Below, piece after piece: positions 54,001 through 64,000 of a stretch of 64,000 bases of DNA. Positions within the stretch are counted from its first letter, which is position 1; each line of letters opens with the position of its first letter. This DNA is from Onchidella celtica (lineage: Eukaryota > Mollusca > Gastropoda > Systellommatophora > Onchidiidae): contig OZ007582.1 in the NCBI GenBank assembly GCA_963931925.1, positions 33,049,730 through 33,113,729 on the forward strand, written 5' to 3'. A model generated the notes under the pieces. The model was not told the DNA's origin. It searched no databases and saw only the letters and a program-made list of their open reading frames with translations. A program made the translations under genes and the position numbers.

Positions 54001-57000
54001 GTTTCCCCTTCCGATGAGAACGTGCAAGCATGGTCGCAATCAAAAGGTATTGACTTTTGCGCCGCGATCGAAACACGTCGACGGGTAGCTGATAAAGATA
54101 AGATTAGACCTTTGGCGACGCCAGCGGTCAACCTAGATATCACGCCAGAGCGCTTGGCGAGACTACAAAGGGAGGACCCATCATTAAACCCATGTTTTGG
54201 GGAAGCGCGAACCGAGAAAACGAGGAAATATAAGAACGGGTCATCTTCTTTTTTTGTCCAGGGGGGCATTCTGTTCCGTATGTACGTCACCGTGGCTTCC
54301 GTTCAAAAGCAGGTCGTCGTGCCACGGTCGTTAATTGCTACAGTATTGCGTCTGGCCCATGATGTTCCATTAGCGGGTCATATGGGAAGTGCTAGAACCA
54401 AGCAGAGAGTTCTGAAAGATTTTTATTGGCCGTCAGTATACAGAGATGTGCGGTTATATTGTAAGACGTGCAGTGCGTGCCAAAAGACGACGCATAAGGG
54501 TCGTACACCCCAGGCTCCTCTTCAAAAGATCCCCACGGTTTCGGAACCGTTTAAAAAGGTTTCGATAGACCTTGTTGATTTAAGAGAAAGATTATCTTCA
54601 GCGCGCACTATAGCAGAAGAAGCGTCTGGTATCGCTTCGAAAAGAGCAAAAGACTATAGAGATAGAGGTTCCAAACTGAGAATTTTTAAGCCAGGAGACA
54701 AGGTCCTATTGTTGTTACCTACGGACCATAATAAGTTATTGATGACATGGAAAGGTCCTTATGTTATTGAGCGAATTGTTTCGAAGGTAGATTACGCTAT
54801 CCACATTGATGGATCAGTAAAGGTTTTCCACGTTGATATGCTGCAGAGGTTTCATGAGAGACCAGAGTATCGCTATTCTCGTACTAGTGTTGAAGGACAT
54901 ACCTAATGTCGTGTCATTCTTTGACGATATAGCATGCCATACGTCGACATGGTCTGATCATATTCAGACACTAACAGTAATTTTTAAACGATTACGTCAT
55001 TTTGGGTTAACTGCTAAACCCGCAAAGATGGATTTGGCATGTCCAGAGATAATATTCTTAGGACATATTGTGGGTAGAGGTGTTCAGAGACCTGAAGTAA
55101 CAAAAATTGACAAGTTGGTAGGGTTGCAAATCCCTAAAACAAAGAAACAAGTCAGAAGCTTAGTGGGAATTTTAAATTATTACAGAAAGTTCATTCCAAA
55201 TTTTTCCTCCTTGTCATCTTCTCTTACTGACCTTACTAAGAAGGGACAACCCGATAAGGTCCAGTGGACGTCTGAATGTCAGACAGCATTTGATAATTTG
55301 GTGACAGCATTGTCATCGTCACCCATTCTGATATTACCCGATTTTTGATCTAATTTTATCCTCAGAACGGATGCGTCGGACTCTGGTGTCGGCGCTTGTC
55401 TTCTACAGGAGAAGAACGAATGTCTCCATCCTGTATGTTATGTCAGTAGGAAGTTATTGCAGAGAGAAAGAAAGTATTCTGTGATAGAGCGTGAGTGTCT
55501 TGCCATTGTCTGGTCCGTCCAGAAACTAGGACGTTATCTCATGGGACGAGAATTTTGTATCCAGACAGACCACAAGCCACTGACATTTTTGTCGAAGAAT
55601 CGTTCGTCCAGCCCACGCTTGTCTAGATGGGCATTGGCTTTGCAGCCGTATACCTTCGTTATTCAACCAATTCCAGGAACCAGCAATCATATCGCCGACT
55701 ACCTTAGTCGAGCCTAGGGCAAGATTTCAGGAGCTTATACATCGGAGGACAGGAACATTGACAGGATCTGTGTGAATAAGTCGACTTTAAAATATTGACA
55801 TTATAAATATGATATGAAGAATGGTTGATAGGTTGAATGGTTTTTGATTCTGTATTAAGTATGGTGGTTAGTTAGCTATTCATGATGTGACACATATATG
55901 CATATTTCAGACCATATTGATCCCCATATTTTCCCCTGATTTCGGTATTCTATATACTAGGGGAACTGCTAGGTCATTTTTTTTTAGAGTAGGTATTGCT
56001 CACGCTCACTCGTTGACAGTCATCTTGATGCGATTTGAAATTAATTGCATTAATTTTTTTGGGGTGGGGGATGATGTCACGAGTGGAGTGAGTGCAATTA
56101 AGGGGATTGCTACAGATCGGGTGTAGAGTAAGAAGGGCTCACGGTAGGCAAGCAAGTTAAGCGTGCTGTTGTGAGTAGTGGGGGGGTCTGAAGGAGGCGA
56201 AAGCGCTGTATAACTATCACTGCAAGTTAGAAGGTCCGACGGAGCGGACCTGTGAATAAGAGCCCATCGGGCGGACATAAAGGGAGCAGTCGAGAAGACT
56301 AGTGGAAGAGTCTTTCCAGTAATGACTGGTATGTAGAACGTTGATTGATTATTATGATTGATGTATTATATTATATTCGTCTATTACCATGATGTGAATA
56401 AGTATATGTGAGGAATGGGGAAGTCCTTGATATTGGATATAGCAATGTGCGCCATGAGCGATAGATGAAAGTGAGTTCATGGATTTGTAGCGCGAGTGAG
56501 TAGTGTGTACTCCGATGGAGGTGTGTTACCGTAAGATGTGTGGTGAGTGAAAGGTGAACTAGTGTGTGTACGCTTCATGGATTGTAAGGAGAGGTGGAGT
56601 GAATAGAAATGGTAGGGTATTATACCAATGTAATGTTATTCTTGTAGGTGTCGGGGACGGGCCGAAGAGCCACCTCGATGAGCACAAGTGATAGGCCAGC
56701 ATAGGGCCGGAGGCCGCACATAGGCCAGAAGTGAGGCTGTCAGTGCAGGACAGTAGAGGCACATAAAGTCGTGGCAGTCAGGCCACGGACAGGGACGTAG
56801 ATATGAGAGTGAATGAGATACTATATTGTTGCCATGTTGATAGGCTAGTGAACTGATACTATGTTGTTGCCATGTTGATGGCTATGGAAATAATAATGTG
56901 TTATTGTCCTGCTGAGGTGCTAGGGGAGTGCTAAGGTGTAGGACAATAGGAAGGTGATGTTGAGAGACTGCGGTGCCAGTGAATCATTAATGTACTATTA

Positions 57001-60000
57001 AGACCCTGAGGGGAGAGGCTGAGGCCGAAGTGCCTTTAGGAGTAACCACCGGATTGTGGATCCGAGGGAGAGTGTGTGTGAGAATAAGGCCGTTGTAGGG
57101 CAGTGCATTTCAATAATATAATGTATGTAATTGCGCTATTATATGTATAATTATGTTTAATAAATGTGTGAGTCTGATGGGTTGTTTTGTTAAGTGTTAA
57201 CTTGTTTGTTCGTGATTGTCGTCCTGTCATAAACTATTACATCTCCCAGTCTGGGATTTGTGACAGAGACCTGGCCTAAGTGTTATTGAACGGCTGGTCC
57301 GAGACTTGCCAGCGTGCGTGCGTAGATCGCTTGGCTTTATGCCAATAAGCTTGTTATTGGCTATTATGCCAATAAGCTTGTTATTGGCTCTAAGCCAGGA
57401 AGCTTAGGCTAGACAATACGTGAGGCTTCTTTCGAAGTAGGCCTATCGCCGTATCGGACTAAAATAATTTTGGCCGTCTTTTTAAAATCTGGGAATCTAC
57501 GGGAGTGAAATCTGCAGCGGCTAGATTAAAGTAAAAGACCAAAATAAGACAAAATTAAAATCAGCACCAGAATGGCTTGTTTTTAAGCTTAATTTTAAAA
57601 AAATTTCCGGGGGAGCATGCCCCTGGACCCCCCTAGTGTTTCTCCCGCCTGCGGCGGTCGACTGTTCCGCCTTTGGCGAAAGCTCTCTGATTTCAGCTGA
57701 GTACACTTTGGCCTGATCCCAGCCCTGATTATATTGCCTTGGTGAGAAAAAAATACTTGTAACACTGTCCCTGTTTTTGAAAATTTTTCCGTATGACCCA
57801 TATGCATCCCTTTAGAGTGATTGATTATTTCATTCAGCCACTTAAAAGAAAACAGGAAACCTTGACCCCAGCAATGGAATTCTTTGCCAAGACAATGATA
57901 ATTTTACTTCCTTATTTTCAGGACAAATGAGCACCCAGTCATCGTCAACGAGCACGTCTTTAAGCACTGCAGGGGCTGCCCCCAAACCAGCTGACCTTCC
58001 AAGACCTCAGTCTGAAACAGAACGGCGCATCTTGGAAATTTTGAACAATTCACAAAAGGAGCTGCAGAACCCTACTAGTCCAAGCAGTGCCAGAGGCGGA
58101 AAATCTCCCCGCAGTCGAAGTCCGGCACGGGCACAGCCTTCAACAACATCCGACACGGAAAAATCTCAGGTTGGAGGTGTCGGGGTACTACCTTTGCCTG
58201 TAACAGTCACCGGTGTTCCAGGGCTGGCGATGCCGGGTGATTCTCAAGTGACTTTGCAGAGCGGCCCAACGTCAGGTGTTGTGCCAGAAACGTCTGTCAC
58301 TGCCTTGTGTACTAGTGCATTTGCCGGAGATAAACCCAGTAGACCTGGAGATGGTAAAAATACTCAAGCAGGTGGTTATCCGACTACAGTGTCCTCTGTT
58401 TCGGAGGTACAAAGCAGTGCCGGTATACCATCATCCATGCCGCAGCCACATCCACACATACAGCAGCGGATGCCCATGCATGCCCAGCAACACGGAGGAC
58501 CTATGCCTCCTCCTGGTGGGTTCAGCCAGCAGCAGCATATACAACAGCTGCAAAATTTTGCTCGGCTACAGCATATGCAGCAACAACAACAGCAGCAGCA
58601 GCAACAGCAGTTTCCTGGAATGCCCGAGGGTCAGCGGATGGGCATAGATACCCAACAAATGCCACCGATGAGTGGTGCGAGATACCCACAGTTGCATCCA
58701 TATCCACAGAGACAAAGATTTCAACCTGGTGTAGGGCAGCCTCACCCTTTCCATGGACGACCACCCCACTTGAGACAAGGACATCCACAGTATGCGCCCC
58801 ATATGCAAGGCATGCCTCCAAGAATGGGACAAGACCCTCGAATGCAGGGATCTGAGTCCCCAATGATGCCCCCACATTCAGGGATGCCCCAGCGTATGCC
58901 AGTCGGTGCGACAGGCCTCCCACCCCACCTAACCCATCGTCCACCTGTATCTATGCAACAAGGACCTATGGCAAGCCAGGCTCTACCTCAAGGATCCCTC
59001 CAGCCCAGTCAGGCTCCCCCACTCAGTCATTTGCCGCCCACGTCAACCATACATCAGTATCAAGGCCCACCTCCCGGACCAGGCATGCCACCCCACTCCC
59101 TCTCGTCATCAGCGGCAGGGCCTGTACAAAACGCAGGTGCTTCATCTACCGCCTCTTCATCGTTATCTTCAGCCTCAGCCACAAGCTCAGTGACAACACC
59201 TATTACTGGCTCAGACTCTTTACCTCCCGCCACAGTGGCAGCTTCAGCATTTACACAACCACCACCTCCATCATCATCAAATCAAGGCAGCAGTTCATCA
59301 CCATCATCCTCTCAGTCATCATCATTATCATCAACAGCCGCCTCCAACATTCCAGCTGAGGTTAAAAACCAAAGCCAAACTTCAAGTGCTCATCTCGGTT
59401 CTCCGGCAGCTGCATCGTCATTGGCCACAGTCACATCTTCATTGGCCACAACCATTCCAGGGAGTAGTACGGATTCATCGGGAAGTGCAGGCGACAGTGA
59501 AAATAAAGAAGACAAATCTAAAAACGTGTGTGATGATGGGATACATTGTGGCACAGATGATGAAGATGACAATGAAAATCAGAAAAGGACAAAAAAAGTT
59601 TGTGATGATGGAATTCATTGTGGTACAGATGATGAAGATGATGAAGGGGCAAAGAAAGCTACAAAGAAAGTTTGTGATGATGGAATCCATTGTGGTACAG
59701 ACGATGAAGAAGATGAGATGGCAAAGAAAAATACAAAGAAAGTTTGTGATGATGGAATTCATTGTGGGACAGACGATGAAGAAGATGAGATGGCAAAGAA
59801 AAATACAAAGAAAGTTTGTGATGATGGAATTCATTGTGGGACAGATGAAGAAGAAGATGAGATGGCAAAGAAAAATACAAAGAAAGTTTGTGATGATGGA
59901 ATTCATTGTGGCACAGATGATGAAGAAGATAAAGTTGTAAAGAAAAGGACAAAGAAAGCTTGTGATGACGGAATTCATTGTGGGACTGATGATGAAGATG

Positions 60001-63000
60001 AGGAAATGACAAAAAGAACTGCAAAGAAAATTTGTGATGATGGAATTCATTGTGGGACTGATGATGAAGATGATACTGAAAATCAGGAAAGGACGAAAAA
60101 AGTTTGCGATGATGGAATTCATTGTGGTACAGATGATGAAGAAGATGAGATGGCAAAGAAAATCACAAAGAAAATTTGCGATGACGGAATTCACTGTGGG
60201 ACAGATGATGAAAATGATAAAATAACAAACACAAACACAAAGAAAGTTTGCGATGATGGAATTCATTGTGGGACAGACGATGAAGATGACAGTGAAAATC
60301 AGGTGAGGATGAAAAAGGTTTGTGACGACGGAATTCACTGTGGTACTGATGATGAAGATGAGGAAATGATAAAGAGAAATGCCAAGAAAGTTTGCGATGA
60401 TGGAAATCACTATGGAACTGACGATGAAGATGATGAGATGACAGGGAAAAATGCGAAGAAAGTTTGTGAAGACGGAATTCATTGTGGTACTGACGATGAG
60501 GAAGATGAGATGGCAAAGAAAAATACAAAGAAAGTTTGTGATGATGGAATTCATTGTGGTACTGACGATGAAGAAGATGAGATGGCAAAGAAAAATACAA
60601 AGAAAGTTTGTGATGATGGAATTCATTGTGGGACTGTTGACGAAGAAGATGAGATGGCAAAGAAAAATACAAAGAAAGTTTGTGATGATGGAATTCATTG
60701 TGGGACAGATGACGAAGAAGATGAGATGGCAAAGAAAAATACCAAGAAAGTTTGTGATGATGGAATTCATTGTGGGACAGATGACGAAGAAGATGAGATG
60801 GCAAAGAAAAATACAAAGAAAGTTTGTGATGATGGAATTCATTGTGGGACAGATGACGAAGAAGATGAGATGGCAAAGAAAAATACAAAGAAAGTTTGTG
60901 ATGATGGAATTCATTGTGGGACAGATGATGAAGAAGATGAGATGGCAAAGAAAAATACAAAGAAAGTTTGTGATGATGGAATTCATTGTGGCACAGATGA
61001 TGAAGAAGATGGGACAAACATGAAAAGTAGCAAAAAAGTTTGTGATGATGGAATTCATTGTGGTACAGATGATGAAGATGATAGTGAAAATCGGAAGCTG
61101 ACAAAAAAAGTTTGCGAAGACGGGTTACACTGTGGAACTGATGATGAAGATGATGAAACAGCAAAGAAACTTACAACAAAAGTTTGCGATGATGGAATTC
61201 ATTGTGGAACTGATGATGAAGATGATGAAACAGCAAAGAAAAATGCAAAGAAAGTTTGTGAAGACGGAATTCATTGTGGGACAGACGATGAAGATGATGG
61301 GACAAACATGAAAAGTAGCAAAAAAGTTTGTGACGATGGAATTCATTGTGGTACGGATGATGAAGATGACAATAAAAATCAGAATACGACAAAGAAGGTA
61401 TGTGATGATGGAATTCATTGTGGTACAGATGACGAAGATGACAATAAAAATCAGAATATGACAAAGAAAGTATGTGATGATGGAATTCATTGTGGTACAG
61501 ATGACGAAGATGACAATAAAAATCAGAATATGACAAAGAAAGTATGTAACGATGGGATTCATTGTGGTACAGATGATGAAGATGACCATAATAAACCAGC
61601 CACTGAATCCACCACTCAGCCACCACCGCCATCTTCTGCCACATCAACTTCTGCTACAACATCCACATCAGTCAATGGTGCCACTGCTGAAACTGAGGAA
61701 AAGACACAAGAAACGACAACTCACCCATCAAAAATTAGCTCTCAAAACGAAAGGCAAGAAACAGATATGGAGATTGACAACAAAGAAGCAGAGAAAAACC
61801 AGTCAGCCTCTGCTCCAGCTTCATCAACTGCAACGGCCATTACAAGTGCATCAGCTACTAGCAATAACTGTGCAGAGACTTTTGTGTCGCAGTCAGTGGC
61901 CAGCAAAACCAGTTCACTTCTTGTAAGTAAACATGAAATAACCACCAGTGCAACAAAGAGTGAAGTTCATGCCATTAACCCTCTGTCTTCTAGTGTCAGT
62001 TCAGCTGCAAGTGTCCCCATCCCAGCCAGACCTATGGTGCCTATTGACTCACAGATCTCATCTCAGCTGGCTGCAGTGTCACGTTCCTTGGCCAACTTCA
62101 AGCCACGTCTTGACCCAGATACCTCATATCCCGCAGCAGATGCTGTCAGGCCTTCCGAGACACTCTCGGCATTCACATTCTCATCATCTTTACCTTCATC
62201 ATCGTCACCATCCACCGCTACATCGACAACAACAGTAGCCTTGTCAGGCAGTGATGTGAAAGTGACTGGATCAGAAAGAGAGACGATGACACAGAATAAC
62301 ACGTCATCAACATCAGATCCTGAAACAATTAATGATAACAATATCGATAATGAAAAAGCTGAAACTATATCAGAACACAAGGCTGAAATTGGCCACCCCT
62401 CTGAAAACATCAGTGATAGTGGGAGTGTACCAACTCTGCAAACAGAACAAAAGATCTCAGAACAAACAGCAAAACCTATTTCAGAAGCCGATGGGGGCGT
62501 GGCCAATTCTTTAACAAACCTAATAGTAAGTAAGTCCGCCGATCAGACTCAATCGCCTATCCAATCAGCTGAACTTTCAAAATCTGTGGTACAAACACTG
62601 GGCCCGCTAACATTGACGTCTTCACCTTCTTCATTAACAACGTCATCGACTGCATCTGCCAGTACAGCGGCTCAGACATCTGTTTCTAGTGCTAGTCCTA
62701 CAGTCGCTGCATCTTCATTGCCTGGAGCTGTGGCAGCTTCTATGTCGACATTTACGTCATCAACGTCTGCAGCTTCAGCACCACCCAAAGTACAATCTAC
62801 CATCATACCATCCTCTGTAACGTCATCTCAGCCCCTGCAGACATCATCACCAGGGTCCAAAACAGGGTCAGCAACAACAACAACAGCACCATTATCCCAG
62901 CCTGTCACTACCGCTACTACGAACTCCACAGTCACTTCAGCTGACAGTGCCATGGAAACATCTGCCAACACAACATCAACCACAGCTGCCACTGCCAATA

Positions 63001-63899
63001 ACATTTTCCGAAGTGGAGGGATAGAATCTCGCCCAGTTGTCCCCCCCTTGCGTATTCGCATGGACAGCCAATCACAGCCTCAGGTATATGAAAGCAGTGC
63101 CCCACAGTACCACCGATCGTCTCCCGCTGAGTTTTCCAGTGCTCCCATGAGGACTAAAGCAGAAGGAGACCTCAAGCTGGTCCTTAGGAAGTCTTCAGAC
63201 GGAACTGCAGAACTTATTTCCGGGCCATCGTTCAGAGAGAAGGCTAAACGTACATCGTCGGTAGTAGATGCTGAATCTTCAATGCCAGCATCTCGGATGG
63301 ACTCGGACTACAAGCAAATAACCTCACAGTCGACACCTACGACTCCCTCCTCAGCCCCAGTCTCAGTGCTGCCATCATCTTCATCATCATCATCAGTAGC
63401 CCCTGTAGGCATGCACAGAACATTCACACCACCATCATCATCATCTATCTCCACCTACAACATGGACAACCTTCCACACTCAACTGCAGGAATCCCTGCA
63501 CCAGGTATACCTCAACCACCACATAATGTCCGAACTTTAGACCCGCCCCCTTCCACTCTGACACATTACCCAAATATCCCCGGAACTTCTGCAGCTTTTA
63601 TGTATTCACCGCTTCCAACAACAGCTACAGCTGCATCAGCACCTTCTCATCAAATGCCACCTGTACCACCACCTCACCCGGCTTCATCAGCAGCAATGTT
63701 GCGTATGTCAGCCCCAGCATCATCGGCTGCCACTTCCGGTTTCCCAGGTGCACCGACCACTGGACGACCAGAGGCATTTACAGCCAGACCAGGATCTGGC
63801 TTTTTCAAGAACATCGGCCAGACCAGGTCACCTGACACAGAAGTTAGTGTCAAATCCAGTGGTGGGAGTACAAAGAGCAGCGGAGATGGCACTAAAAGG
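46..63899 (+). CDS. KMT2C/D: KMT2C/KMT2D-type histone H3K4 methyltransferase, central part (gene overview)
   Basis: The family writes H3K4 mono-methylation at enhancers as the catalytic subunit of the nuclear COMPASS-like complex with UTX, WDR5, RBBP5 and ASH2L. I see 26 exons: 46-96, then 25 exons starting at 14037, 15457, 16770, 20137, 31011, 32321, 33388, 34237, 35003, 36364, 36898, 37480, 39337, 40492, 41123, 41991, 42825, 43914, 44743, 45257, 47099, 48446, 48837, 49566 and 57922. All introns are GT-AG and all phases agree. The identification rests on recalled human KMT2C/D landmarks in the right order: HMG-box end, LR..ILxQQ helix, FDI..Y.DP.LD block, LLDDLL followed by E-K-rich sequence, a coiled coil with FEG.V.KL and AKK.G.E, DNNPFSE.FQ.RE, and a lysine patch. 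PHD fingers are expected upstream, and FYRN, FYRC and SET downstream. Both ends are therefore partial. Whether invertebrate-type single ortholog or a paralog cannot be told. Confidence 0.93.
359..406 (+). CDS. Possible lysine-rich micro-exon of KMT2C/D
   Basis: A 48-nt stretch lies between a TTATTTCAAAG acceptor and a GTCAGT donor. It would encode ITLKQTPSKGLLVKKK, 16 residues in phase 0, consistent with both neighbours. The basic composition suits the linker after the HMG box. Against it: the acceptor is weak (AAG) and the exon is tiny, so chance is a real alternative. Confidence 0.3.
1346..1372 (+). CDS. Possible 9-residue micro-exon of KMT2C/D
   Basis: 27 nt lie between TATATTCCAG and GTAGGT. 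They would encode KKAGQKSKN in phase 0. Human KMT2C has a basic RQKSKQQ stretch downstream of the HMG box, which makes this tempting. The short length means the match could be chance, and the pyrimidine tract is poor. Confidence 0.25.
2319..2403. repeat. 27-bp tandem repeat, three copies
   Basis: Three nearly perfect head-to-tail copies of an A-rich unit (AAAAGATGATTTTAAAG plus A-rich tail). The period is a multiple of three, so it makes a spurious repetitive reading frame. No gene is inferred. Confidence 0.85.
4174..5405 (+). repeat. 5' LTR of fossil A
   Basis: 1,232 bp, TGTCAC...GCGACA. Contains a 12-G run, a short internal tandem (TGTTGCCATGTTGATAGGC type, about 4930-5020) and AATAAA at 5298-5303, a likely polyadenylation signal. 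Its partner is 10886-12117. Confidence 0.93.
5402..5465 (+). promoter_or_regulatory. Primer-binding site of fossil A, present as three tandem 23-bp units
   Basis: TGGGGGCTCGTCCG occurs at 5407, 5430 and (one base shorter) 5453, at exactly 23-bp spacing, starting one base after the LTR. It matches the complement of the 3' end of tRNA-Pro, the primer class known from gammaretroviruses. Normally one such site is present. Confidence 0.8.
6402..10529 (+). pseudogene. gag-pol remnant of fossil A
   Basis: The remnant opens with an acidic/basic coiled-coil gag N-terminus, then a gag core. Two zinc knuckles follow (CWTCGRVGHFSREC and CWNCGRADHISVNC, about 7552-7647). After these come an aspartic-protease-like DTGS site (about 7905-7916), an HHCC integrase zinc-binding segment (about 8470-8610), a GPY-type integrase C-terminal segment (about 8810-8980), reverse transcriptase with the FDD-type active-site box (about 9280-9960) and RNase H (about 10170-10520). 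The whole region is broken in a few places and treated as a fossil. Confidence 0.85.
10530..10885 (+). other. Fossil A 3' untranslated tail with polypurine tract
   Basis: AT-rich, no gene. It ends in a T-run followed by GGGGTGGGGGATGA directly against the 3' LTR, the expected plus-strand primer site. The same tail is found in fossil B (55718-56074). Confidence 0.75.
10886..12117 (+). repeat. 3' LTR of fossil A
   Basis: Same length as the 5' LTR and almost identical to it. It is followed directly by the ATGCA target duplication. Confidence 0.93.
12640..12945. repeat. 17-bp minisatellite, about 18 copies
   Basis: The unit is GTCAGTGTCTGGGCTCT with single-base variants. Because 17 is not a multiple of three, all three forward frames stay open and give Ser/Val/Gly/Leu/Trp-rich false peptides. 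It lies within the long intron, 0.5 kb past fossil A. Confidence 0.92.
13318..13412. repeat. Short T/G-rich tandem (GTTGATGTTGTTGTTG type), three units
   Basis: Three units of about 40 bp, each GTGTAAAAATTTGTTGATGTTG-like, in the long intron. The ORF seen on the minus strand here is an artefact of the repeat. Confidence 0.7.
13450..13735 (+). repeat. Direct repeat, upstream arm flanking the 14037 exon
   Basis: About 285 bp matching 14945-15228 in the same direction. Shared stretches include AAAAGAGCACAAT, ACATATTCATTCTTCAGACTT, AAATGCTTTATC and CCTTAGTTCTTGTTT. The copies are clearly diverged. It could be a local duplication or a dispersed element. Confidence 0.75.
14037..14151 (+). CDS. KMT2C/D: Exon: Gln-rich helix then polyproline (KMT2C/D)
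   Basis: Acceptor CTCTGCAGCAG, donor GTAACT. The 115 nt encode QVTQELQRRQEIQKQQ, a Q/E/R helix comparable to the QKLEQVKNEQQ region of KMT2C, followed by MPPPPAPPPLPPGEHYHE. The exon ends one base into a codon. The acceptor is a NAGNAG site, so an extra glutamine can be included or skipped. Confidence 0.85.
14531..14782 (+). mobile_element. MITE family 'GTCACTGCTCT', copy 1
   Basis: About 250 bp. It shares CAGACTTACGCCAAAAGGCAAC and GGCATAAGTCACCAAATG blocks with copies at 26833, 34662 and 42508 (inverted). The ends are inverted repeats, best preserved in copy 2, and an internal GGCATAAGTCA ... TGACTTATGCC pair forms the end of the right arm. No coding capacity, so it depended on a transposase elsewhere. 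Superfamily not assigned. Confidence 0.75.
14945..15228 (+). repeat. Direct repeat, downstream arm flanking the 14037 exon
   Basis: Partner of 13450-13735, with the exon 14037-14151 between the arms. See that entry for shared blocks. Confidence 0.75.
15457..15858 (+). CDS. KMT2C/D: Exon: proline/serine-rich, DPYAFDQFTPTQ (KMT2C/D)
   Basis: Acceptor CCTTTCCCAG, donor GTAACT, 402 nt, phase 1 to phase 1. Encodes a disordered P/S/G-rich segment (GAGPMMSPHPGASPYPRH...). It includes SSPDPYAFDQFTPT, TTFGASSPRDEEDLFAAPG and KTPSQEGFMGPRRPQ. DPY followed by TP or PGTPRP-like strings are repeated many times in vertebrate KMT2C. A short acidic RDEEDLF patch could be a binding motif. No folded domain. 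Confidence 0.88.
16289..16720 (+). mobile_element. MITE family 'GGCC...GTAAAC', copy 1, interrupted
   Basis: The left part (GGAAAACTATCATAACTCAGTTTTTAC) matches the left arm of the intact copy at 21470. The sequence then resumes after 16659 with TTAACACTTAGTTTTCAGAA, as expected if the piggyBac-like element split it at a TTAA. The right end is degraded. Confidence 0.6.
16407..16659 (+). mobile_element. piggyBac-like MITE, copy 1
   Basis: 253 bp from TTAA to TTAA. The inverted ends read TTAACTCTTTCAGGA. A second copy lies inverted at 29545-29793. The TTAA target and the inverted ends fit a non-autonomous piggyBac relative. The interior holds no reading frame. Confidence 0.75.
16770..17085 (+). 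CDS. KMT2C/D: Exon: proline-rich, DPYAFTPSGPQTPG (KMT2C/D)
   Basis: Acceptor TTATCTGCAG, donor GTTAGT. The 316 nt go from phase 1 to phase 2. It contains GDPYAFTPSGPQTPG, EDPFLPPGPPTPDSY and SPYPGSPVRMPDPTF. These are degenerate copies of the DPYxxPPGTPRP motif that decorates KMT2C. The last codon is CG plus A from the next exon (Arg). Confidence 0.88.
17140..17500. repeat. About 67-bp tandem repeat, five copies
   Basis: Units share GGAATCAGCATTTCAGTAAG, TGAAATACTTTCTATTTGTGG and AGAAATGATACAATG. It starts about 55 bp after the splice donor of the preceding exon. Confidence 0.85.
19159..19509 (+). mobile_element. LINE (non-LTR retrotransposon) ORF2 C-terminal end
   Basis: 116 uninterrupted codons and a TAG stop. 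The peptide shows the typical tail after the reverse transcriptase of many invertebrate LINEs: KRRWRWLGHVLRK, ALQWTPEGRRKRGKPK, TWRRTIEAEMK, DRQGWRSFVAAL. The 5' part of the element is absent (5' truncation is normal for LINEs). The stop is followed by a short TAG microsatellite, which is a possible 3' tail. Intact frame over this stretch suggests modest age. The family was not assigned. Confidence 0.8.
19590..20005. mobile_element. hAT-like MITE
   Basis: The left end CAGTGGTTTTAACCTTTTTTG and the right end ...CATTGAGAAACGCTG (reverse CAGCGTTTCTCAATG) resemble the CAGTGGTTCTCAA-type termini of hAT elements. No coding sequence. A clean 8-bp target duplication is not obvious. Confidence 0.5.
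20137..20299 (+). CDS. KMT2C/D: Exon: SMPDPYSMQMGTPRPP (KMT2C/D)
   Basis: Acceptor TTTATTTCAG, donor GTAACT, 163 nt, phase 2 to phase 0. It encodes HPLARSNSMPDPYSMQMGTPRPPMDPGM and RSMSEVGPDAGQMYRGARM. The DPY....GTPRPP string is the clearest copy of the KMT2C DPYA.PPGTPRP motif in this window. Two Ser flank arginine (RSNS, RSMS), possible phosphorylation or 14-3-3-type sites by inference only. Confidence 0.9.
21470..21706 (+). mobile_element. MITE family 'GGCC...GTAAAC', copy 2, most complete
   Basis: 237 bp. The left end GGCCACGTGGTAAACTATCG pairs with the reverse of the right end, GGGCCGCATGGTAAACTATC, as terminal inverted repeats. The interior has the family signature CTTGACA/AGATATTTGRCATGCTTG (here inverted as TTGTCAAGGGATACCAGCATG). 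No ORF. Superfamily not assigned. Confidence 0.75.
22974..23112. repeat. ATTT-rich low-complexity tract
   Basis: Irregular TTAT/ATTT repeats. No coding or structural signal beyond the simple sequence. Confidence 0.8.
23181..23260. repeat. Dispersed repeat 'TATAGCGCTCAAA', copy 1
   Basis: GTAATGTAGTGTAATAATTA followed by TATAGCGCTCAAA and GCTCGAAGGCA matches 49930-50015 in the same direction. The motif resembles the 3' part of common marine-invertebrate SINE-type repeats, but no tRNA-like head was found. Confidence 0.5.
24051..24492. mobile_element. TIR element with CTATAGGCCC ends
   Basis: About 440 bp. The left end CTATAGGCCCCTTGCGGATAAC pairs with the reverse of the right end, CTATAGGCCCATTGCGAATGAC. 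No transposase frame is visible, so this is a MITE-like element. A TA target is possible. Confidence 0.65.
25812..26052 (-). mobile_element. MITE family 'GGCC...GTAAAC', copy 3
   Basis: About 240 bp, inverted relative to copy 2. Inverted ends include TAAACCATTATAATTC and TAAACTATTATAATTC. The interior contains GAGATATTTGGCATGCTTG and AGCCCTTGACAGCCGGCAG. Confidence 0.7.
26833..27080 (+). mobile_element. MITE family 'GTCACTGCTCT', copy 2
   Basis: 248 bp. The left end GTCACTGCTCTACAGTAAT pairs with the reverse of the right end, GTTGCCACTGCTCTACGC. This copy best shows the terminal inverted repeats. Confidence 0.75.
28278..28438. repeat. Inverted repeat (hairpin-like)
   Basis: ATGTGTATGGAAACAGAAAC near the left and its near-complement GTTTCTGTTTCCATACATAT near the right enclose about 120 bp. 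This could be a small MITE or a foldback. No flanking duplication checked. Confidence 0.55.
29545..29793 (-). mobile_element. piggyBac-like MITE, copy 2 (inverted)
   Basis: 249 bp, TTAA to TTAA. It matches copy 1 (16407-16659) along its length in the opposite direction, including the GATTTATCGG and TTCCAAAGTGGG blocks. Confidence 0.75.
31011..31176 (+). CDS. KMT2C/D: Exon: LR..ILxQQ basic helix (KMT2C/D)
   Basis: Acceptor GCCATTCCAG, donor GTACAG, 166 nt, phase 0 to 1. The peptide HHQQLRVILGQQTKERMAKK followed by QVQEEAERMMQG and PPPPPPAWQGPESA parallels human KMT2C, recalled as KLREIILQQQQQKKIAGRQE followed by a HWQPE tail. This is a predicted charged alpha-helix in an otherwise disordered part, a conserved anchor for the gene assignment. 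Confidence 0.93.
31177..32320 (+). other. Intron with a cluster of GGCC-ATAT-GGCC near-palindromes
   Basis: The GGCC near-palindrome cluster is at 31420-31519. Elsewhere it is AT-rich with T and C runs (31860-31945). No gene seen. Confidence 0.7.
31420..31519. repeat. Three spaced near-palindromes GGCC-n8-GGCC
   Basis: GGCCAGTATATTGGCC (31420), GGCCAATATATCGGCC (31460) and GGCCGATATTTGGGCC (31504) lie at 40-44 bp spacing. GCAACAATGTT / GCAACATACAAT repeats lie between them. Looks like a fragment of a short-period satellite or of a mobile element's internal repeats. Confidence 0.65.
32321..32487 (+). CDS. KMT2C/D: Exon: Gly/Pro/Met-rich disordered (KMT2C/D)
   Basis: Acceptor ATTTTCACAG, donor GTATGT. 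The 167 nt go from phase 1 to 0. It encodes GMDTFQPRPPFRGPSPHGFM, RGPHPGMLPQGARPPFYPGG and MQRSPHPDAFGGPSQ. It falls at the place of the GFRFGFPGG/HGTMPSQERF region of human KMT2C. No folded domain is expected. Confidence 0.9.
32488..33387 (+). other. Intron, nothing recognised
   Basis: AT-rich sequence. Short ORFs on both strands near 32820-33190 lack splice context and similarity, and I see no repeat family in it. Confidence 0.7.
33388..33664 (+). CDS. KMT2C/D: Exon: QFIQMMQERM helix plus P/S/T-rich tail (KMT2C/D)
   Basis: Acceptor CTACAAGCAG (AAG and CAG in tandem, so NAGNAG choice of one extra Gln is possible), donor GTAAAA. The 277 nt go from phase 0 to 1. A short Gln/Met helix (DQRNQQFIQMMQERMGQ) leads into a disordered S/A/P/T tract ending in GLTRQLSAPP. 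Confidence 0.9.
33665..34236 (+). other. Intron, nothing firm
   Basis: AT-rich. A GGGTTTAGCCCAGATAATGCTGGGTATCTCATCTAGTA-type block near 34025-34065 vaguely resembles, in reverse, a block near 2513-2545, so a short dispersed repeat is possible. Confidence 0.5.
34237..34392 (+). CDS. KMT2C/D: Exon: acidic linker EEDKNEDDDLL (KMT2C/D)
   Basis: The acceptor is a T-run ending TTTTAG, donor GTAAGT, 156 nt, phase 1 to 1. Ser/Thr-rich (SSQPSTSKTLGSEDGTPVES) then acidic (SSEEDKNEDDDLL). It precedes the FDI block exactly as the acidic DLDDEDLENL...DDLL segment does in human KMT2C. Confidence 0.92.
34393..35002 (+). other. Intron with MITE copy
   Basis: Contains GTCACTGCTCT MITE copy 3 (34662-34886). 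The remainder is AT-rich. Confidence 0.8.
34662..34886 (+). mobile_element. MITE family 'GTCACTGCTCT', copy 3
   Basis: About 225 bp. Contains CAGACTTATGCCAAAAGGCA, TGAGGGCTATCAGATAATAT and CTAAGTCACCAAATG. Its ends are more worn than in copy 2. Confidence 0.75.
35003..35159 (+). CDS. KMT2C/D: Exon: FDILKYADPDLD conserved acidic block (KMT2C/D)
   Basis: Acceptor CTTTCCACAG, donor GTAAGT, 157 nt, phase 1 to 2. GTFDILKYADPDLD then LDDKMFEHLDFMED matches the human KMT2C block recalled as FDIIAYTDPELDMGDKKSMF, one of the few well conserved linear motifs in the long disordered middle. Acidic and aromatic, it may be a protein-binding helix (inference). Followed by a Lys/Glu/Asp tail (PKKSDEEKSDDV). 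Confidence 0.95.
35218..35470 (-). mobile_element. LINE ORF2 C-terminal fragment, minus strand
   Basis: Translates to HVTRASGLSKTILQGTVQGT, RRQGRQRKKWTDNITEWTG and HQKWRQLVQNS, the typical end of a common invertebrate LINE. One in-frame TGA stop lies just upstream of that run (YGHV preceded by a stop, where W is usual), so the fragment is dead. It belongs to a different LINE family from the one at 19159. Confidence 0.75.
35508..35800 (+). repeat. About 155-bp segment duplicated in tandem
   Basis: Both copies contain GCAGATACGTCACAAATAGT, TATCAG, TGGGCCATGT, CCAGT.GCAC and TGATATATATAATTTGATCC-like blocks. They diverge moderately. Confidence 0.75.
36080..36350 (+). repeat. Diverged about 58-bp tandem repeat before an acceptor
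   Basis: Repeats of TTAATGACTGTTCAGTT followed by TGGACATAAAATTTGCAT, five or so worn copies. Its T-rich last copy forms part of the pyrimidine tract for the exon at 36364. Confidence 0.65.
36364..36594 (+). CDS. KMT2C/D: Exon: Lys/Glu-rich charged helix (KMT2C/D)
   Basis: Acceptor CTATTATGTAG, donor GTAAGG, 231 nt, phase 2 to 2. Reads KDEVKDEKETESTSARAAAA, then DFQAQFLEFNQRQKNEAMKK and EEESDSTSTVDEREKEKSEV, then GQIAAMLQGTEAMTAR. It is strongly charged, predicted helical, and continues the acidic/basic stretch after the FDI block. Confidence 0.9.
36595..36897 (+). other. Short intron, nothing recognised
   Basis: 303 bp of AT-rich sequence. No repeat or ORF of note. Confidence 0.85.
36898..37069 (+). 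CDS. KMT2C/D: Exon: P/S/G-rich disordered (KMT2C/D)
   Basis: Acceptor CTACTCCAG, donor GTAAGT, 172 nt, phase 2 to 0. LTSSEPSTPDVKPPGSEAG then FNPNLASPHMQMSPSQGPP and SGLPSPK. Multiple SP/TP sites are possible proline-directed phosphorylation sites (inference). Confidence 0.9.
37070..37479 (+). other. Intron, AT-rich
   Basis: Contains short AAATAAATA/GTAAATTAATAAATC-type simple sequence (37170-37260). Nothing else recognised. Confidence 0.8.
37480..37751 (+). CDS. KMT2C/D: Exon: SP-rich disordered (KMT2C/D)
   Basis: Acceptor TTTTATTTCAG, donor GTAAGT, 272 nt, phase 0 to 2. IMHSPRSGQPSPRTPGIQSP then ALIGGRHSASPHSQPMTPGG and HSPYPTSSQPPFAK. Dense SPR/TPG motifs, low complexity, no domain. Confidence 0.9.
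37752..39336 (+). other. Intron with one copy of a dispersed 250-bp repeat
   Basis: Contains a repeat at 38150-38400 related to 39880-40130. The rest is AT-rich with T and A runs. ORFs of 74-91 codons here are not supported. Confidence 0.75.
38150..38400 (+). repeat. Dispersed 250-bp repeat, copy 1
   Basis: Shares GGTCATGTG/GTCATGTG, CACAAAGCAAA, AAAAATACTTCCCCACCAT and TGTATGAGCC with 39880-40130. The copies are well diverged and the family was not recognised. Confidence 0.65.
39337..39477 (+). CDS. KMT2C/D: Exon: Gly/Pro-rich GPPHMMSPGYPGG (KMT2C/D)
   Basis: Acceptor CTATTTCAG, donor GTGGGA, 141 nt, phase 2 to 2. LSSPGPPHMMSPGYPGGTMG then PRVPAGFNQMAGPRGAAVYG. The donor GTGGGA is weaker than the others in the gene, so skipping of this 47-codon, in-frame exon is conceivable. 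Confidence 0.88.
39478..40491 (+). other. Intron with copy 2 of the 250-bp repeat
   Basis: The repeat lies at 39880-40130. A purine-rich block (40310-40380) follows. No gene seen. Confidence 0.75.
39880..40130 (+). repeat. Dispersed 250-bp repeat, copy 2
   Basis: Partner of 38150-38400, same direction. One copy lies on each side of exon 39337-39477, another direct-repeat bracket around an in-frame-compatible exon. Confidence 0.65.
40492..40637 (+). CDS. KMT2C/D: Exon: RFPRPVDTSMEGVEGLGPRM (KMT2C/D)
   Basis: Acceptor TTTGTCCAG, donor GTACAA, 146 nt, phase 2 to 1. PVEGQPGRFPRPVDTSMEGV then GLGPRMPQPMTLPDGRPHPM and FQQMQARG. Pro/Met-rich and disordered. Confidence 0.9.
40638..41122 (+). other. 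Intron, nothing recognised
   Basis: AT-rich, with an A-run near 41070 and a C/T tract before the next acceptor. Confidence 0.8.
41123..41340 (+). CDS. KMT2C/D: Exon: ends in LxxLL motif LLDDLLAQ (KMT2C/D)
   Basis: Acceptor CCCCTTTTTTAG, donor GTAAGT, 218 nt, phase 1 to 0. A P/S/Q-rich stretch leads to SQPTLLDDLLAQ, and the next exon continues EKEDQKRQAEQQ. Human KMT2C is recalled as LLLQDLLDQERQEQQQQRQM, so motif and following charged helix match. LxxLL is the classical nuclear-receptor box by which this family is recruited to receptor-bound enhancers. Confidence 0.93.
41341..41990 (+). other. Intron with A-rich tandem repeat
   Basis: An about 37-bp A-rich tandem fills 41380-41620. The rest is unremarkable. 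Confidence 0.85.
41380..41620. repeat. About 37-bp A-rich tandem repeat, six worn copies
   Basis: Units share ATTTTGCAAAACCCCACATA followed by GCAACAAATAAAAAGAAA. It starts 40 bp after a splice donor. Confidence 0.85.
41991..42267 (+). CDS. KMT2C/D: Exon: charged helix then Gly/Pro-rich (KMT2C/D)
   Basis: Acceptor TCCTTCACAG, donor GTATGT, 277 nt, phase 0 to 1. EKEDQKRQAEQQVMMHRREG (helix following the LxxLL) then SSGPPSASGAPPPHTVGGMP, RMEHPGMRMPGPPDGSGPGW and GGVGGPPPPGQFQQ. Confidence 0.92.
42268..42824 (+). other. Intron with inverted MITE copy
   Basis: GTCACTGCTCT MITE copy 4 occupies 42508-42733. T-rich stretches precede it. Confidence 0.8.
42508..42733 (-). mobile_element. MITE family 'GTCACTGCTCT', copy 4 (inverted)
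   Basis: About 226 bp. Contains GGTGACTTATGCCATCATGATTCT, shown here only in part as GTGACTTATGCCATCATGAT, plus TGCCTTTTGGCACAAGTCTG. Its right end CGATAATGGC...GAGAGCAGTGACG is the reverse of the family's left end. Confidence 0.75.
42825..42989 (+). CDS. KMT2C/D: Exon: Gly/Pro/Met-rich (KMT2C/D)
   Basis: Acceptor TTTTTTTTCAG, donor GTTTGT, 165 nt, phase 1 to 1. QGFPPRMMHQGMPQRPPVPF then PGPPDMRGPNPGGAGPPPGQ and MPMGPPTPVNPPS. Disordered. Confidence 0.9.
42990..43913 (+). other. Intron with microsatellites
   Basis: CA repeat (43482-43500), AAT repeat (43570-43597) followed by TAGTGCCC...TCTAGGCGCTTTACAG, a string often seen at the 3' end of marine SINE-type repeats, and a TC/TATC repeat (43660-43775). 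Confidence 0.75.
43482..43775. repeat. Microsatellite cluster (CA)n, (AAT)n, (TC)n/(TATC)n
   Basis: Three simple repeats in 300 bp. The AAT run adjoins a GCGCTTTACA-type segment, so it may be the tail of a decayed SINE-like copy. Confidence 0.8.
43914..44068 (+). CDS. KMT2C/D: Exon: coiled coil, first half (KMT2C/D)
   Basis: Acceptor ACTGTATCCTAG, donor GTAAGT. The 155 nt go from phase 1 to 0. YERQAAQYEDWLAKQGMYLE then TQVKTFEGQVNKLKRSKKTI and QARQRL closely match human KMT2D, recalled as QYEEYLRQQRATIEEQVKVF followed by EGRVQKLRKTKKALNAKQR. This is among the strongest similarities in the window. A long charged coiled coil, likely for dimerisation or partner binding (inference). Confidence 0.96.
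44069..44742 (+). other. Intron with MITE copy
   Basis: A worn GGCC-family MITE lies at about 44452-44640. Elsewhere AT-rich. Confidence 0.75.
44452..44640 (-). mobile_element. MITE family 'GGCC...GTAAAC', copy 4 (worn)
   Basis: Recognised by GAGATATTTGGTATGCTTGT, AGCCCATGATAGC and GTTGGGTTAAATTCTGAAAAC. The right terminus is lost. Confidence 0.6.
44743..44898 (+). CDS. KMT2C/D: Exon: coiled coil, second half (KMT2C/D)
   Basis: Acceptor ATTATCTTCAG, donor GTTGGT, 156 nt, phase 0 to 0. AKKNGQELNPADTAELERIS then TEQSGLQKQLEAQRKLLRQH and QHLVQDYKNKQQ parallel human KMT2D AKKAGKEFPEADAEKLRLVT with TEQQSKIQKQLDQVRKQQKE and EYRNKQQ. The intron falls between QRL and AKK. Confidence 0.96.
44899..45256 (+). 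other. Intron, nothing recognised
   Basis: 358 bp, AT-rich. The minus-strand ORFs here overlap the coding exon and are not supported. Confidence 0.85.
45257..45475 (+). CDS. KMT2C/D: Exon: QEYEAYMQNRIRQANQMQQQ helix (KMT2C/D)
   Basis: Acceptor TTCCCTTGGCAG, donor GTATGT, 219 nt, phase 0 to 0. P/M/T-rich stretch (GGMAETPMPGPTMSMPHPRT) then SPTARQEYEAYMQNRIRQAN and QMQQQNRMRPPTTILG, a predicted amphipathic helix. The Q-rich helix occupies the place of the QLQHQQ region in human KMT2C. Confidence 0.9.
45497..45856. mobile_element. piggyBac-like MITE, second family
   Basis: 360 bp, TTAA at both ends. Inverted ends TTAACCTTTTCACATCAC and TTAACCTTTTCGTATCACC. No reading frame of note. Confidence 0.65.
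45871..46633. mobile_element. piggyBac-like element, third family (763 bp)
   Basis: TTAACCCATACCCCGCGCA at the left and, reversed, TTAACCCTCACCCTGCGAG at the right. TTAACCC-type ends and a TTAA target are typical of piggyBac relatives. The interior is GC-richer at its ends, with no transposase domain seen. Confidence 0.6.
47099..47801 (+). CDS. KMT2C/D: Exon: DNNPFSEAFQQRE then collagen-like Pro/Gly tract (KMT2C/D)
   Basis: Acceptor ATTTATTTACAG, donor GTTTGT. The 703 nt go from phase 0 to 1. It starts DNNPFSEAFQQREQIQRAPL, matching human KMT2C DDNNPFSESFQERERKERL. It then becomes P/G/S/T-rich with HP-repeats (SGPPHPPTSGLPHAQ) and three near-exact copies of GPQMTTGPQGPP (about 47656-47750), giving short collagen-like G-X-Y runs. 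The conserved start is a firm landmark. The repeats are lineage-specific low complexity. Confidence 0.94.
47656..47762 (+). repeat. 36-bp coding tandem repeat, GPQMTTGPQGPP
   Basis: Three copies within the exon, in frame (unit 36 nt = 12 residues). Adjacent MTQGPSGPQ and GQPMTTGHPG look like decayed copies. Confidence 0.85.
47802..48445 (+). other. Intron with a MITE copy
   Basis: GGCC-family copy 5 fills 47970-48210. The remainder is AT-rich. Confidence 0.8.
47970..48210 (-). mobile_element. MITE family 'GGCC...GTAAAC', copy 5
   Basis: 241 bp from GGGCCACTTGCTAAATGTCG to ...AACTGTTTACCAGACAGCCC. Interior GCATGCTTGTCGCCCTTGAC. Its orientation was judged from this block. Confidence 0.7.
48446..48532 (+). 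CDS. KMT2C/D: Exon: MQFFRERNIPFEGG (KMT2C/D)
   Basis: Acceptor AATATCAATAG, donor GTAAGT. The 87 nt go from phase 1 to 1, 29 codons: GPMEGMGPMQFFRERNIPFE and GGAGPRFPR. Small and removable without frame change. I know no matching motif. Confidence 0.85.
48533..48836 (+). other. Short intron, nothing recognised
   Basis: 304 bp, AT-rich. Confidence 0.85.
48837..49004 (+). CDS. KMT2C/D: Exon: Gly/Pro-rich (KMT2C/D)
   Basis: Acceptor CTTTTTCCAG, donor GTAGGG, 168 nt, phase 1 to 1. PGPAGFQDGAAPVQGPAPRL then PPYPGTPGIYPQGVGPGMEQ and GRMPFQPPGGMPFQP. Disordered. Confidence 0.9.
49005..49565 (+). other. Intron, nothing recognised
   Basis: AT-rich, with a TTTA simple repeat near 49443-49466. Confidence 0.85.
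49566..49724 (+). CDS. KMT2C/D: Exon: lysine patch KEKKKRKKKKK (KMT2C/D)
   Basis: Acceptor AAAATTTACAG, donor GTAAGA, 159 nt, phase 1 to 1. MTQANPQMSDLPAAMQPPPK then EKKKRKKKKKSDEAEGAQSQ. This corresponds to the EEKGKKKRTRKKKRDDDAES patch of human KMT2C: a basic run followed by an acidic one. A nuclear-localisation signal is likely (inference). An alternative donor 11 bp upstream would shift the frame, so 49724 is preferred. Confidence 0.93.
49930..50015. repeat. Dispersed repeat 'TATAGTGCTCAAA', copy 2
   Basis: Same family as 23181-23260. Continues GATATGCTCCAAGGTGCTGA. Confidence 0.5.
50197..51387 (+). repeat. 5' LTR of fossil B
   Basis: 1,191 bp, TGTCAC...GTGACA. Differs from the LTR of fossil A by several small indels, so A and B are separate insertions of a diversified family. 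Confidence 0.93.
51384..51424 (+). promoter_or_regulatory. Primer-binding site of fossil B, two tandem 23-bp units
   Basis: TGGGGGCTCGTCCG at 51389 and a one-base-shorter copy at 51412. tRNA-Pro type. Fossil A has three units. Confidence 0.8.
52356..55717 (+). pseudogene. gag-pol remnant of fossil B
   Basis: Parts in order: gag N-terminal coiled coil and core, two CCHC knuckles (about 53432-53527), protease-like site, integrase zinc-binding segment (about 54350-54490), GPY-type segment (about 54690-54860), then reverse-transcriptase and RNase H sequence up to 55717. Nearly identical to fossil A where both are present. Broken, several breaks. Confidence 0.85.
56075..57265 (+). repeat. 3' LTR of fossil B
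   Basis: Same length as the 5' LTR, preceded by GGGGTGGGGGATGA and followed by GAGAC. Confidence 0.93.
57922..63899 (+). CDS. KMT2C/D: Giant 6-kb exon: Q/S/T-rich with a 29-unit CDDGIHCGTDDE array (KMT2C/D)
   Basis: Acceptor TTATTTTCAG, donor GTAGGC, 5,978 nt, phase 1 to 0, open throughout. Numbering from the ATG at 57927 (not a start): 1-110 S/P-rich with SETERRILEILNNSQKEL; 115-215 mixed; an 11-Gln run at 218-228 (58578-58610); 230-410 P/Q/H/M-rich; 415-530 Ser/Thr-rich; 533-1228 the 24-residue repeat array; 1229-1720 S/T/A-rich; 1700-1760 VVPPLRIRMDSQ and GDLKLVLRKSSDGTAELISG, the only segment that looks structured; then S/P-rich to the donor. Vertebrate KMT2D has Q-rich sequence here. 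The array has no counterpart that I know. It could be spliced internally, but no strong internal sites were noticed. Confidence 0.9.
59523..61610 (+). repeat. 29-unit, 72-bp coding tandem array (24-aa Cys/His/acidic repeat)
   Basis: The first Cys codon is at 59529 and the last at 61545, 2,016 nt apart = 28 x 72, so no unit has gained or lost a base. Consensus: K-V-C-D-D-G-I-H-C-G-T-D-D-E-(E/D)-D, then seven variable residues, then K. Both Cys and the His are kept in 28 of 29 units. Unit 13 reads GNHYGT. Variable tails fall in classes: EMAKKNTK (units 3-5 and 14-20), xENQxRxK, EMxKRxAK, GTNMKSSK, NKNQNxTK. Most units hold an EcoRI site (GAATTC). The array is highly acidic with periodic lysines. 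Confidence 0.97.
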
Positions 63900-64000
63900 G
63901 TAGGCACTTCATGAGCAGATGTAAAATAACATTTATAAGTCTAGGGAAGCATGGGGAACACTGTCTTATATCTTTTCAAAGGCTGCAGTTGGAACAGTTA
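63900..64000 (+). other. Start of the next intron
   Basis: Begins GTAGGC after ACT AAA AGG. The open frame would hit TGA at 63912 if not spliced, which would truncate the protein before FYRN/FYRC/SET. An intron here is therefore expected. Confidence 0.7.

Follow-up and report, generated by a model that had tools for sequence, protein, structure and literature searches.

Among the described systems closest to the array reported here are two sets of short repeats in nuclear proteins. The C-terminal repeats of RNA polymerase II comprise up to 52 imperfect heptads, according to an excerpt of PMC9834408, and the SDT repeats of MDC1, once phosphorylated by CK2, bind the FHA and BRCT domains of Nbs1, according to an excerpt of PMC8079451. 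Here, we describe an array of 29 units of 72 bp at 59523 to 61610 (+ strand) of a 64,000-nucleotide stretch of the gastropod Onchidella celtica (contig OZ007582.1; below, the window). We lean, at about even confidence, toward reading it as tandem copies of a single short linear motif within a disordered part of a KMT2C/D-like protein. Like the RNA polymerase II heptads, it repeats a single short motif many times in a seemingly disordered nuclear protein, but the motif, the unit length, and the partners differ. As in MDC1, acidic Ser/Thr motifs of CK2 type recur along a nuclear protein. In contrast to MDC1, the array exon has 0 matches to SD[ST]D, and the array has a strict 24-residue period with Cys and His in each unit.

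The gene that appears to hold the array resembles KMT2C and KMT2D (MLL3 and MLL4) in having a coiled coil, a DNNPFSE block, a Lys-rich patch, and a Q-rich region in the same order. A 24-residue Cys/His/Asp array is not known to occur in KMT2C/D. Phase separation of MLL4 depends on its disordered region, per an excerpt of a review (PMC10423695). SPOC domains read phosphorylated motifs, and the SPOC domain of SHARP binds both KMT2D-containing and NCoR-containing complexes, as stated in an excerpt of PMC9834408.

Layout of the array and apparent selection on its core

The array lies in a likely large exon at 57922 to 63899 (+ strand; 5978 bp, 1992 codons plus 2 bases) that is elsewhere rich in Ser, Pro, Thr, Ala, and Gln. 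We delimited this exon by its frame, by splice sites read by eye, and by composition; the frame of the array is stop-free from 57846 to 63911. Translation in 72-base steps gave 29 units of 24 residues with zero indels and zero stops, and Tandem Repeats Finder reported 28.6 copies of period 72 at 59529 to 61585. The 29 phased units of the initial annotation are thus confirmed. A scan with a 23-base core pattern (at most 3 mismatches) returned 27 matches, every one inside the array, against a mean of 0.00 expected. These cover 27 of the 29 units, with units 13 and 23 unmatched. Open frames also run along the opposite strand (for example, 549 aa at 59475 to 61124), as expected, because the repeat period is divisible by three.

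The first 16 residues of the unit have the consensus K-V-C-D-D-G-I-H-C-G-T-D-D-E-[DE]-[DE]. Seven residues (C3, D5, G6, H8, G10, T11, and E14) are invariant in all 29 units, and the pattern kept over about 16 residues is C-x-D-G-x-H-C-G-T-x-x-E followed by acids. C9 is present in 28/29 units; the exception is unit 13 (60387 to 60458, + strand), the only unit without the second Cys, in which C9 is replaced by Y and I7 by N. The C-x4-H-C motif earlier ascribed to each unit therefore holds in 28 units, and unit 13 reads C-x4-H-Y. The tail of unit 29 is divergent. Directly before unit 1, at 59490 to 59522, we read by eye GDSENKEDKSK, which is like the tails of units 11 (DDSENQ..) and 22 (DDSENR..) and, from this resemblance, is likely the decayed tail of an earlier unit.

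We next treat the unit as a core (residues 1 to 16) and a tail (residues 17 to 24), which in unit 1 occupy 59523 to 59570 and 59571 to 59594 (+ strand) and recur every 72 bases. We counted changes by parsimony on a tree relating the 29 units; the neutral model used the observed mutation spectrum. The core had 19 nonsynonymous and 50 synonymous changes, against a neutral expectation of about 74% nonsynonymous (ratio, 0.13; approximate p, ~1e-15). In contrast, the tail had 61 nonsynonymous and 23 synonymous changes, with 80% nonsynonymous expected (ratio, 0.68; approximate p, 0.075). Core and tail differ in this respect (Fisher p, 2.5e-8). Synonymous changes per codon were alike (50/16 in the core and 23/8 in the tail), and mutation input was thus about equal in the two parts. 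The initial annotation had proposed such a comparison of core and tail, which we ran here across the units of the array.

The contrast held on four trees, built from all sites, the tail only, the core only, and core third positions (core ratio, 0.10 to 0.16; tail ratio, 0.69 to 0.91). It also held among 15 units more than 6 nt apart (core, 0.10; tail, 0.58). Consistently with this, diversity at codon positions 1, 2, and 3 was 0.021, 0.017, and 0.319 in the core and 0.321, 0.400, and 0.453 in the tail. As frame controls, we computed the core ratio over all unit pairs. It was 0.098 for the coding frame, compared with 4.6 and 3.8 for the two remaining plus-strand frames and 11.0 and 12.0 for two of the antisense frames. 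The last antisense frame was low at 0.087 because its third positions are common with those of the coding frame; it has 32 stops over the array. Because the core is short of nonsynonymous changes, it appears to be under selection at the protein level and bears a signature of purifying selection. The tail drifts in sequence and keeps its length. Selection beyond replication slippage, as suggested earlier, is supported by these counts, trees, and diversities.

The more specific suggestion, that selection acts on C-x4-H-C in particular, was not supported in that form. We found 7 synonymous and 1 nonsynonymous changes at Cys and His codons versus 43 and 18 at the other core codons (Fisher p, 0.43, a test of low power with 8 Cys/His changes). 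Asp5, Gly6, Gly10, Thr11, and Glu14 are as invariant as Cys and His. Since the Cys and His codons are no better kept than the rest, the selected unit is about 16 residues, and C-x4-H-C alone is not singled out.

Local and segmental duplications account for the growth of the array. Local duplication is seen in that neighboring units differ by a mean of 11.46 nt, versus 13.15 to 16.52 nt at lags of 2 to 14, and in that the DNA of units 18 and 19 is identical. Units 14 to 20 (60459 to 60962, + strand) form a block of recent copies, each 0 to 3 nt from its nearest relative. Units 3 to 5 are as close to the type of this block as its own members are, and units 21 and 25 have one tail in common that is absent from all other units. 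Given this mode of growth, the number of units is probably polymorphic.

These signs of duplication would also fit a neutral minisatellite in a tolerant disordered exon, in which units are alike from recent duplication and exchange only. The tail is compatible with neutrality, and near-perfect repeats tend to be unstructured, as an excerpt of PMC2954861 puts it. However, duplication and exchange are blind to whether a change is synonymous or nonsynonymous, yet the core is short of nonsynonymous changes. We therefore consider this explanation highly improbable, and the counts, the diversities, and the four trees led us to reject neutral slippage alone for the core.

Candidate contacts and the linear-motif reading

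In the reading that we favor, each core would serve for docking or cross-linking, with the tails as spacers. Through the array, the methyltransferase would then repeat one weak contact many times, by analogy with the heptad tail of RNA polymerase II and the SDT repeats of MDC1. Because the invariant residues point to both, we consider two candidate contacts, a metal ion and a phosphate.

The first candidate is a metal ion, which might be held by Cys3, His8, and Cys9 from a single unit or from two. The array could also be a metal-binding array outright, in which a unit or a pair of neighbors binds zinc (or copper or iron) through these residues and nearby Asp and which thus forms a chain of minimal knuckles. 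We see this as a tentative possibility. It is consistent with the retention of the three residues at a fixed 24-residue period, and 57 of the 59 Cys residues of the exon are inside the array (2 are outside). In C-x4-H-C, the residues suit a metal site, as in short zinc-binding Cys/His modules. Unlike those modules, the array offers three Cys/His ligands per unit, one below the usual four, and the matches to zinc families were all under the Pfam cut-off (Zn_ribbon_11, E of 0.13 to 0.19; zf_VAL1_N, E of 0.076 at best; Nab2-zf4, E of 0.17). Nor are Cys and His better kept than the rest of the core, in the low-power test above. The C-x5-C spacing, the D-G between, and the acids after also recall the calcium motifs of LDL-receptor class A and thrombospondin type 3 modules, but neither family appeared among the Pfam matches listed for the array. 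Both are extracellular modules.

The second candidate is a phosphate that CK2 might place on Thr11, which has acids at +1, +2, and +3. Ser or Thr with an acid at +3 is the textbook CK2 consensus. We found a Thr with an acid at +3 in 29/29 units, a feature that the initial annotation had missed. T11 is present in 29/29 units with 5 synonymous and 0 nonsynonymous changes, and E14 stands at +3 in each of them. We counted 28 matches to the strict site [ST][DE][DE][DE] inside the array and 0 elsewhere in the exon; outside the array, the exon has 28 matches to the loose site [ST]xx[DE] among 388 Ser/Thr. These sites would suit a phospho-switch array, in which CK2 phosphorylates Thr11, a reader of FHA, BRCT, or SPOC type docks, and the number of units sets the valence. 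MDC1 provides a precedent, in the excerpt of PMC8079451. We nevertheless find this explanation rather doubtful. It leaves C3, H8, C9, D5, and G6 unexplained, and the SPOC example does not help it, since phosphorylation there favors the competitor NCoR over KMT2D, according to the excerpt of PMC9834408. A further point is that acidic stretches commonly contain a site as short as the CK2 consensus.

Both contacts may be combined. The array would then be a lineage-specific domain like the C-terminal domain of RNA polymerase II, with 29 motifs that are each a metal site and a CK2 phospho-threonine, where metal or redox state and kinase activity set partner valence at enhancers. We regard this as unlikely.

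The unit is also regular in charge. The core (residues 2 to 16) has a charge of -7 in 26/29 units and -6 in 3, and the tail together with the next Lys has a net charge of +3 in 23/28; residues 17 to 24 alone have a mean charge of +1.93. Such alternation may add nonspecific self-association to the linear motif, as is reported for the condensates of human MLL4. It could even be all that counts, the array being a charge-block polyampholyte that serves as an entropic or condensate-forming spacer. In a star-like simulation, tails mutated neutrally from one consensus averaged 1.59, and 0/2000 runs reached the 2.89 observed for 18 distinct tails. However, in a tree-aware simulation (residues 17 to 24, 28 units, 1000 runs per root, four roots), a charge spread this low arose in 1.5 to 11.3% of runs and a mean this high in 10.9 to 45.9%. 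We thus downgraded the claim of a conserved tail charge from strong to suggestive. Charge alone also leaves the invariant C, G, H, and T unexplained, and we judge this explanation quite unlikely.

We used AlphaFold2 to model four units. Given 26 overlapping four-unit pieces as an alignment, it returned a mean pLDDT of 39.2; given a single sequence, it returned 41.5. In both models 96/96 residues were below 50, and neither shows a confident fold. The models suggest that the array is disordered or is ordered only with a ligand outside AlphaFold2's model.

Searches for relatives gave no family. Pfam on four four-unit pieces returned sub-threshold matches only, and TMP-TENI (E of 0.0009 at best), Skp1 (E of 0.003), Dickkopf, the Nab2 and VAL1 zinc fingers, and others, all below the cut-offs, were taken as chance. 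One PDB search gave a chance-level match (7ue2; E of 0.83), presumably a designed protein to judge from its name, and a second gave 0 matches at E 10. We found no relative in the phage, viral-contig, and plasmid collections. In prokaryote genomes, 44 stretches matched a pattern, and none was confirmed as a relative; the viral-contig and prokaryote searches used one query (units 20 to 23) and six short peptide patterns. The peptide strings of the repeat were not found in the papers searched, and no matching description was among the titles and abstract openings listed.

Several points weigh against the linear-motif reading. Cys/His and Thr are both invariant, and neither contact is singled out by this. 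Phosphorylation favors the wrong partner in the SPOC case noted above. The array exon contains no L[SP]DSD, SD[ST]D, or LxxLL motif. The single-sequence model has three helices over acidic and tail residues, all with pLDDT below 50, and AlphaFold2 places no metals, so its low confidence is no argument against a metal-bound fold. The counts of changes assume a tree though exchange among units is likely, which makes the p values approximate; exchange, for its part, gives no preference to synonymous changes. The lack of indels is a weak record, since unequal exchange also removes units of odd length. Finally, no partner, transcript, peptide, or ortholog was seen.

Host gene and neighboring repeats

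Four pieces upstream of the array, on its strand, bear on the identity of the gene. The exon piece at 43916 to 44068 encodes the first half of a KMT2C/D-type coiled coil (YEDWLAKQ...SKKTIQARQR) and ends in the donor CTG/GTAAGT (the slash marks the splice site). In BLASTP, it was identical to a human KMT2C fragment at 16/45 positions (E of 2e-8). The next exon piece, at 44743 to 44898, encodes the second half (AKKNGQELN...YKNKQQ; 23/52 identical to a human fragment; E of 3e-12). The piece at 47096 to 47812 opens with QDNNPFSEAFQ, as in KMT2C, and is Pro-rich after it (9/14 identical to a human fragment; E of 1e-5). The match to the human KMT2C/D fragments is strong yet not independent evidence. 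A Lys-rich piece (KEKKKRKKKKKSDEAE) follows at 49538 to 49724, with the donor TAG/GTAAGA.

The array exon has a good acceptor, ..cttattttcag at 57921, and a plausible donor, AAAAGG/GTAGGC after 63899, both read by eye. Worked out by hand, the phase of the donor after 49724, with one base left over, fits the acceptor at 57921; an additional small exon between 49724 and 57921 is possible. The coiled coil and the DNNPFSE block of KMT2C/D are thus both present upstream, in the same order and on the strand of the array. From this comparison, a KMT2C/D-like identity of the gene is supported, and strand, acceptor, and phase would place the array exon in it. These ordered matches to human fragments support the earlier assignment of the array to an H3K4 methyltransferase.

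Pfam on the whole array open reading frame gave 0 families at E 1. On 10 upstream pieces (those at 47072 and 49538 were outside the scan), it gave sub-threshold matches only, which were taken as chance, and the two coiled-coil pieces had nothing over the cut-off. No SET, PHD/ePHD, FYRN, FYRC, or HMG domain was found in the array exon or the 10 upstream pieces, which are part of the window; the 3' part of the gene is beyond it. Within the Pro-rich piece, after DNNPFSE, we observed a 36-bp in-frame repeat (GPQMTTGPQGPP; 3.2 copies at 47637 to 47751), a second, shorter coding repeat of the same gene.

A long terminal repeat (LTR) retroelement at 50197 to 57265 (+ strand) lies between the Lys-rich piece and the array exon. 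Its terminal repeats (50197 to 51387 and 56075 to 57265) are 99.9% identical, and GAGAC stands on either side, likely a 5-bp target duplication. Pfam placed zf-CCHC, SCAN, and Integrase_H2C2 above the cut-off and pieces of RVT_1 and RT_RNaseH_2 below it. A second copy is present at 4169 to 12117 on the same strand, with terminal repeats 99.8% identical; on the basis of these identities, both copies are recent. In the copy at 4169 to 12117, within 6393 to 10526, an integrase zinc-binding domain is encoded ahead of the reverse transcriptase, the order of Gmr1-like elements; the three pieces scanned showed no integrase core domain. Tandem copies of TTGTGACACTGGGGGCTCGTCCG mark the inner edge of each element's left terminal repeat, three at 5398 to 5465 and two at 51380 to 51424. 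The sequence resembles a tRNA-Pro primer binding site, and the primer site of the element may thus be duplicated. The window also contains a 17-bp minisatellite (18.3 copies at 12638 to 12942) that is open in several frames. Rfam and tRNA scans were empty.

Implications

We provisionally place the array, as a variant, among the multivalent repeats of disordered chromatin proteins. Poor alignment between species makes the disordered regions of chromatin enzymes difficult to interpret. In the present case, a single gene copy offers 29 replicates of one motif, in which silent versus amino acid changes show which residues matter, and the function of such a disordered region is directly testable with short peptides. 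If each motif were both a metal site and a CK2 site, metal or redox state and kinase activity would jointly set the valence of the enzyme for its partners at enhancers.

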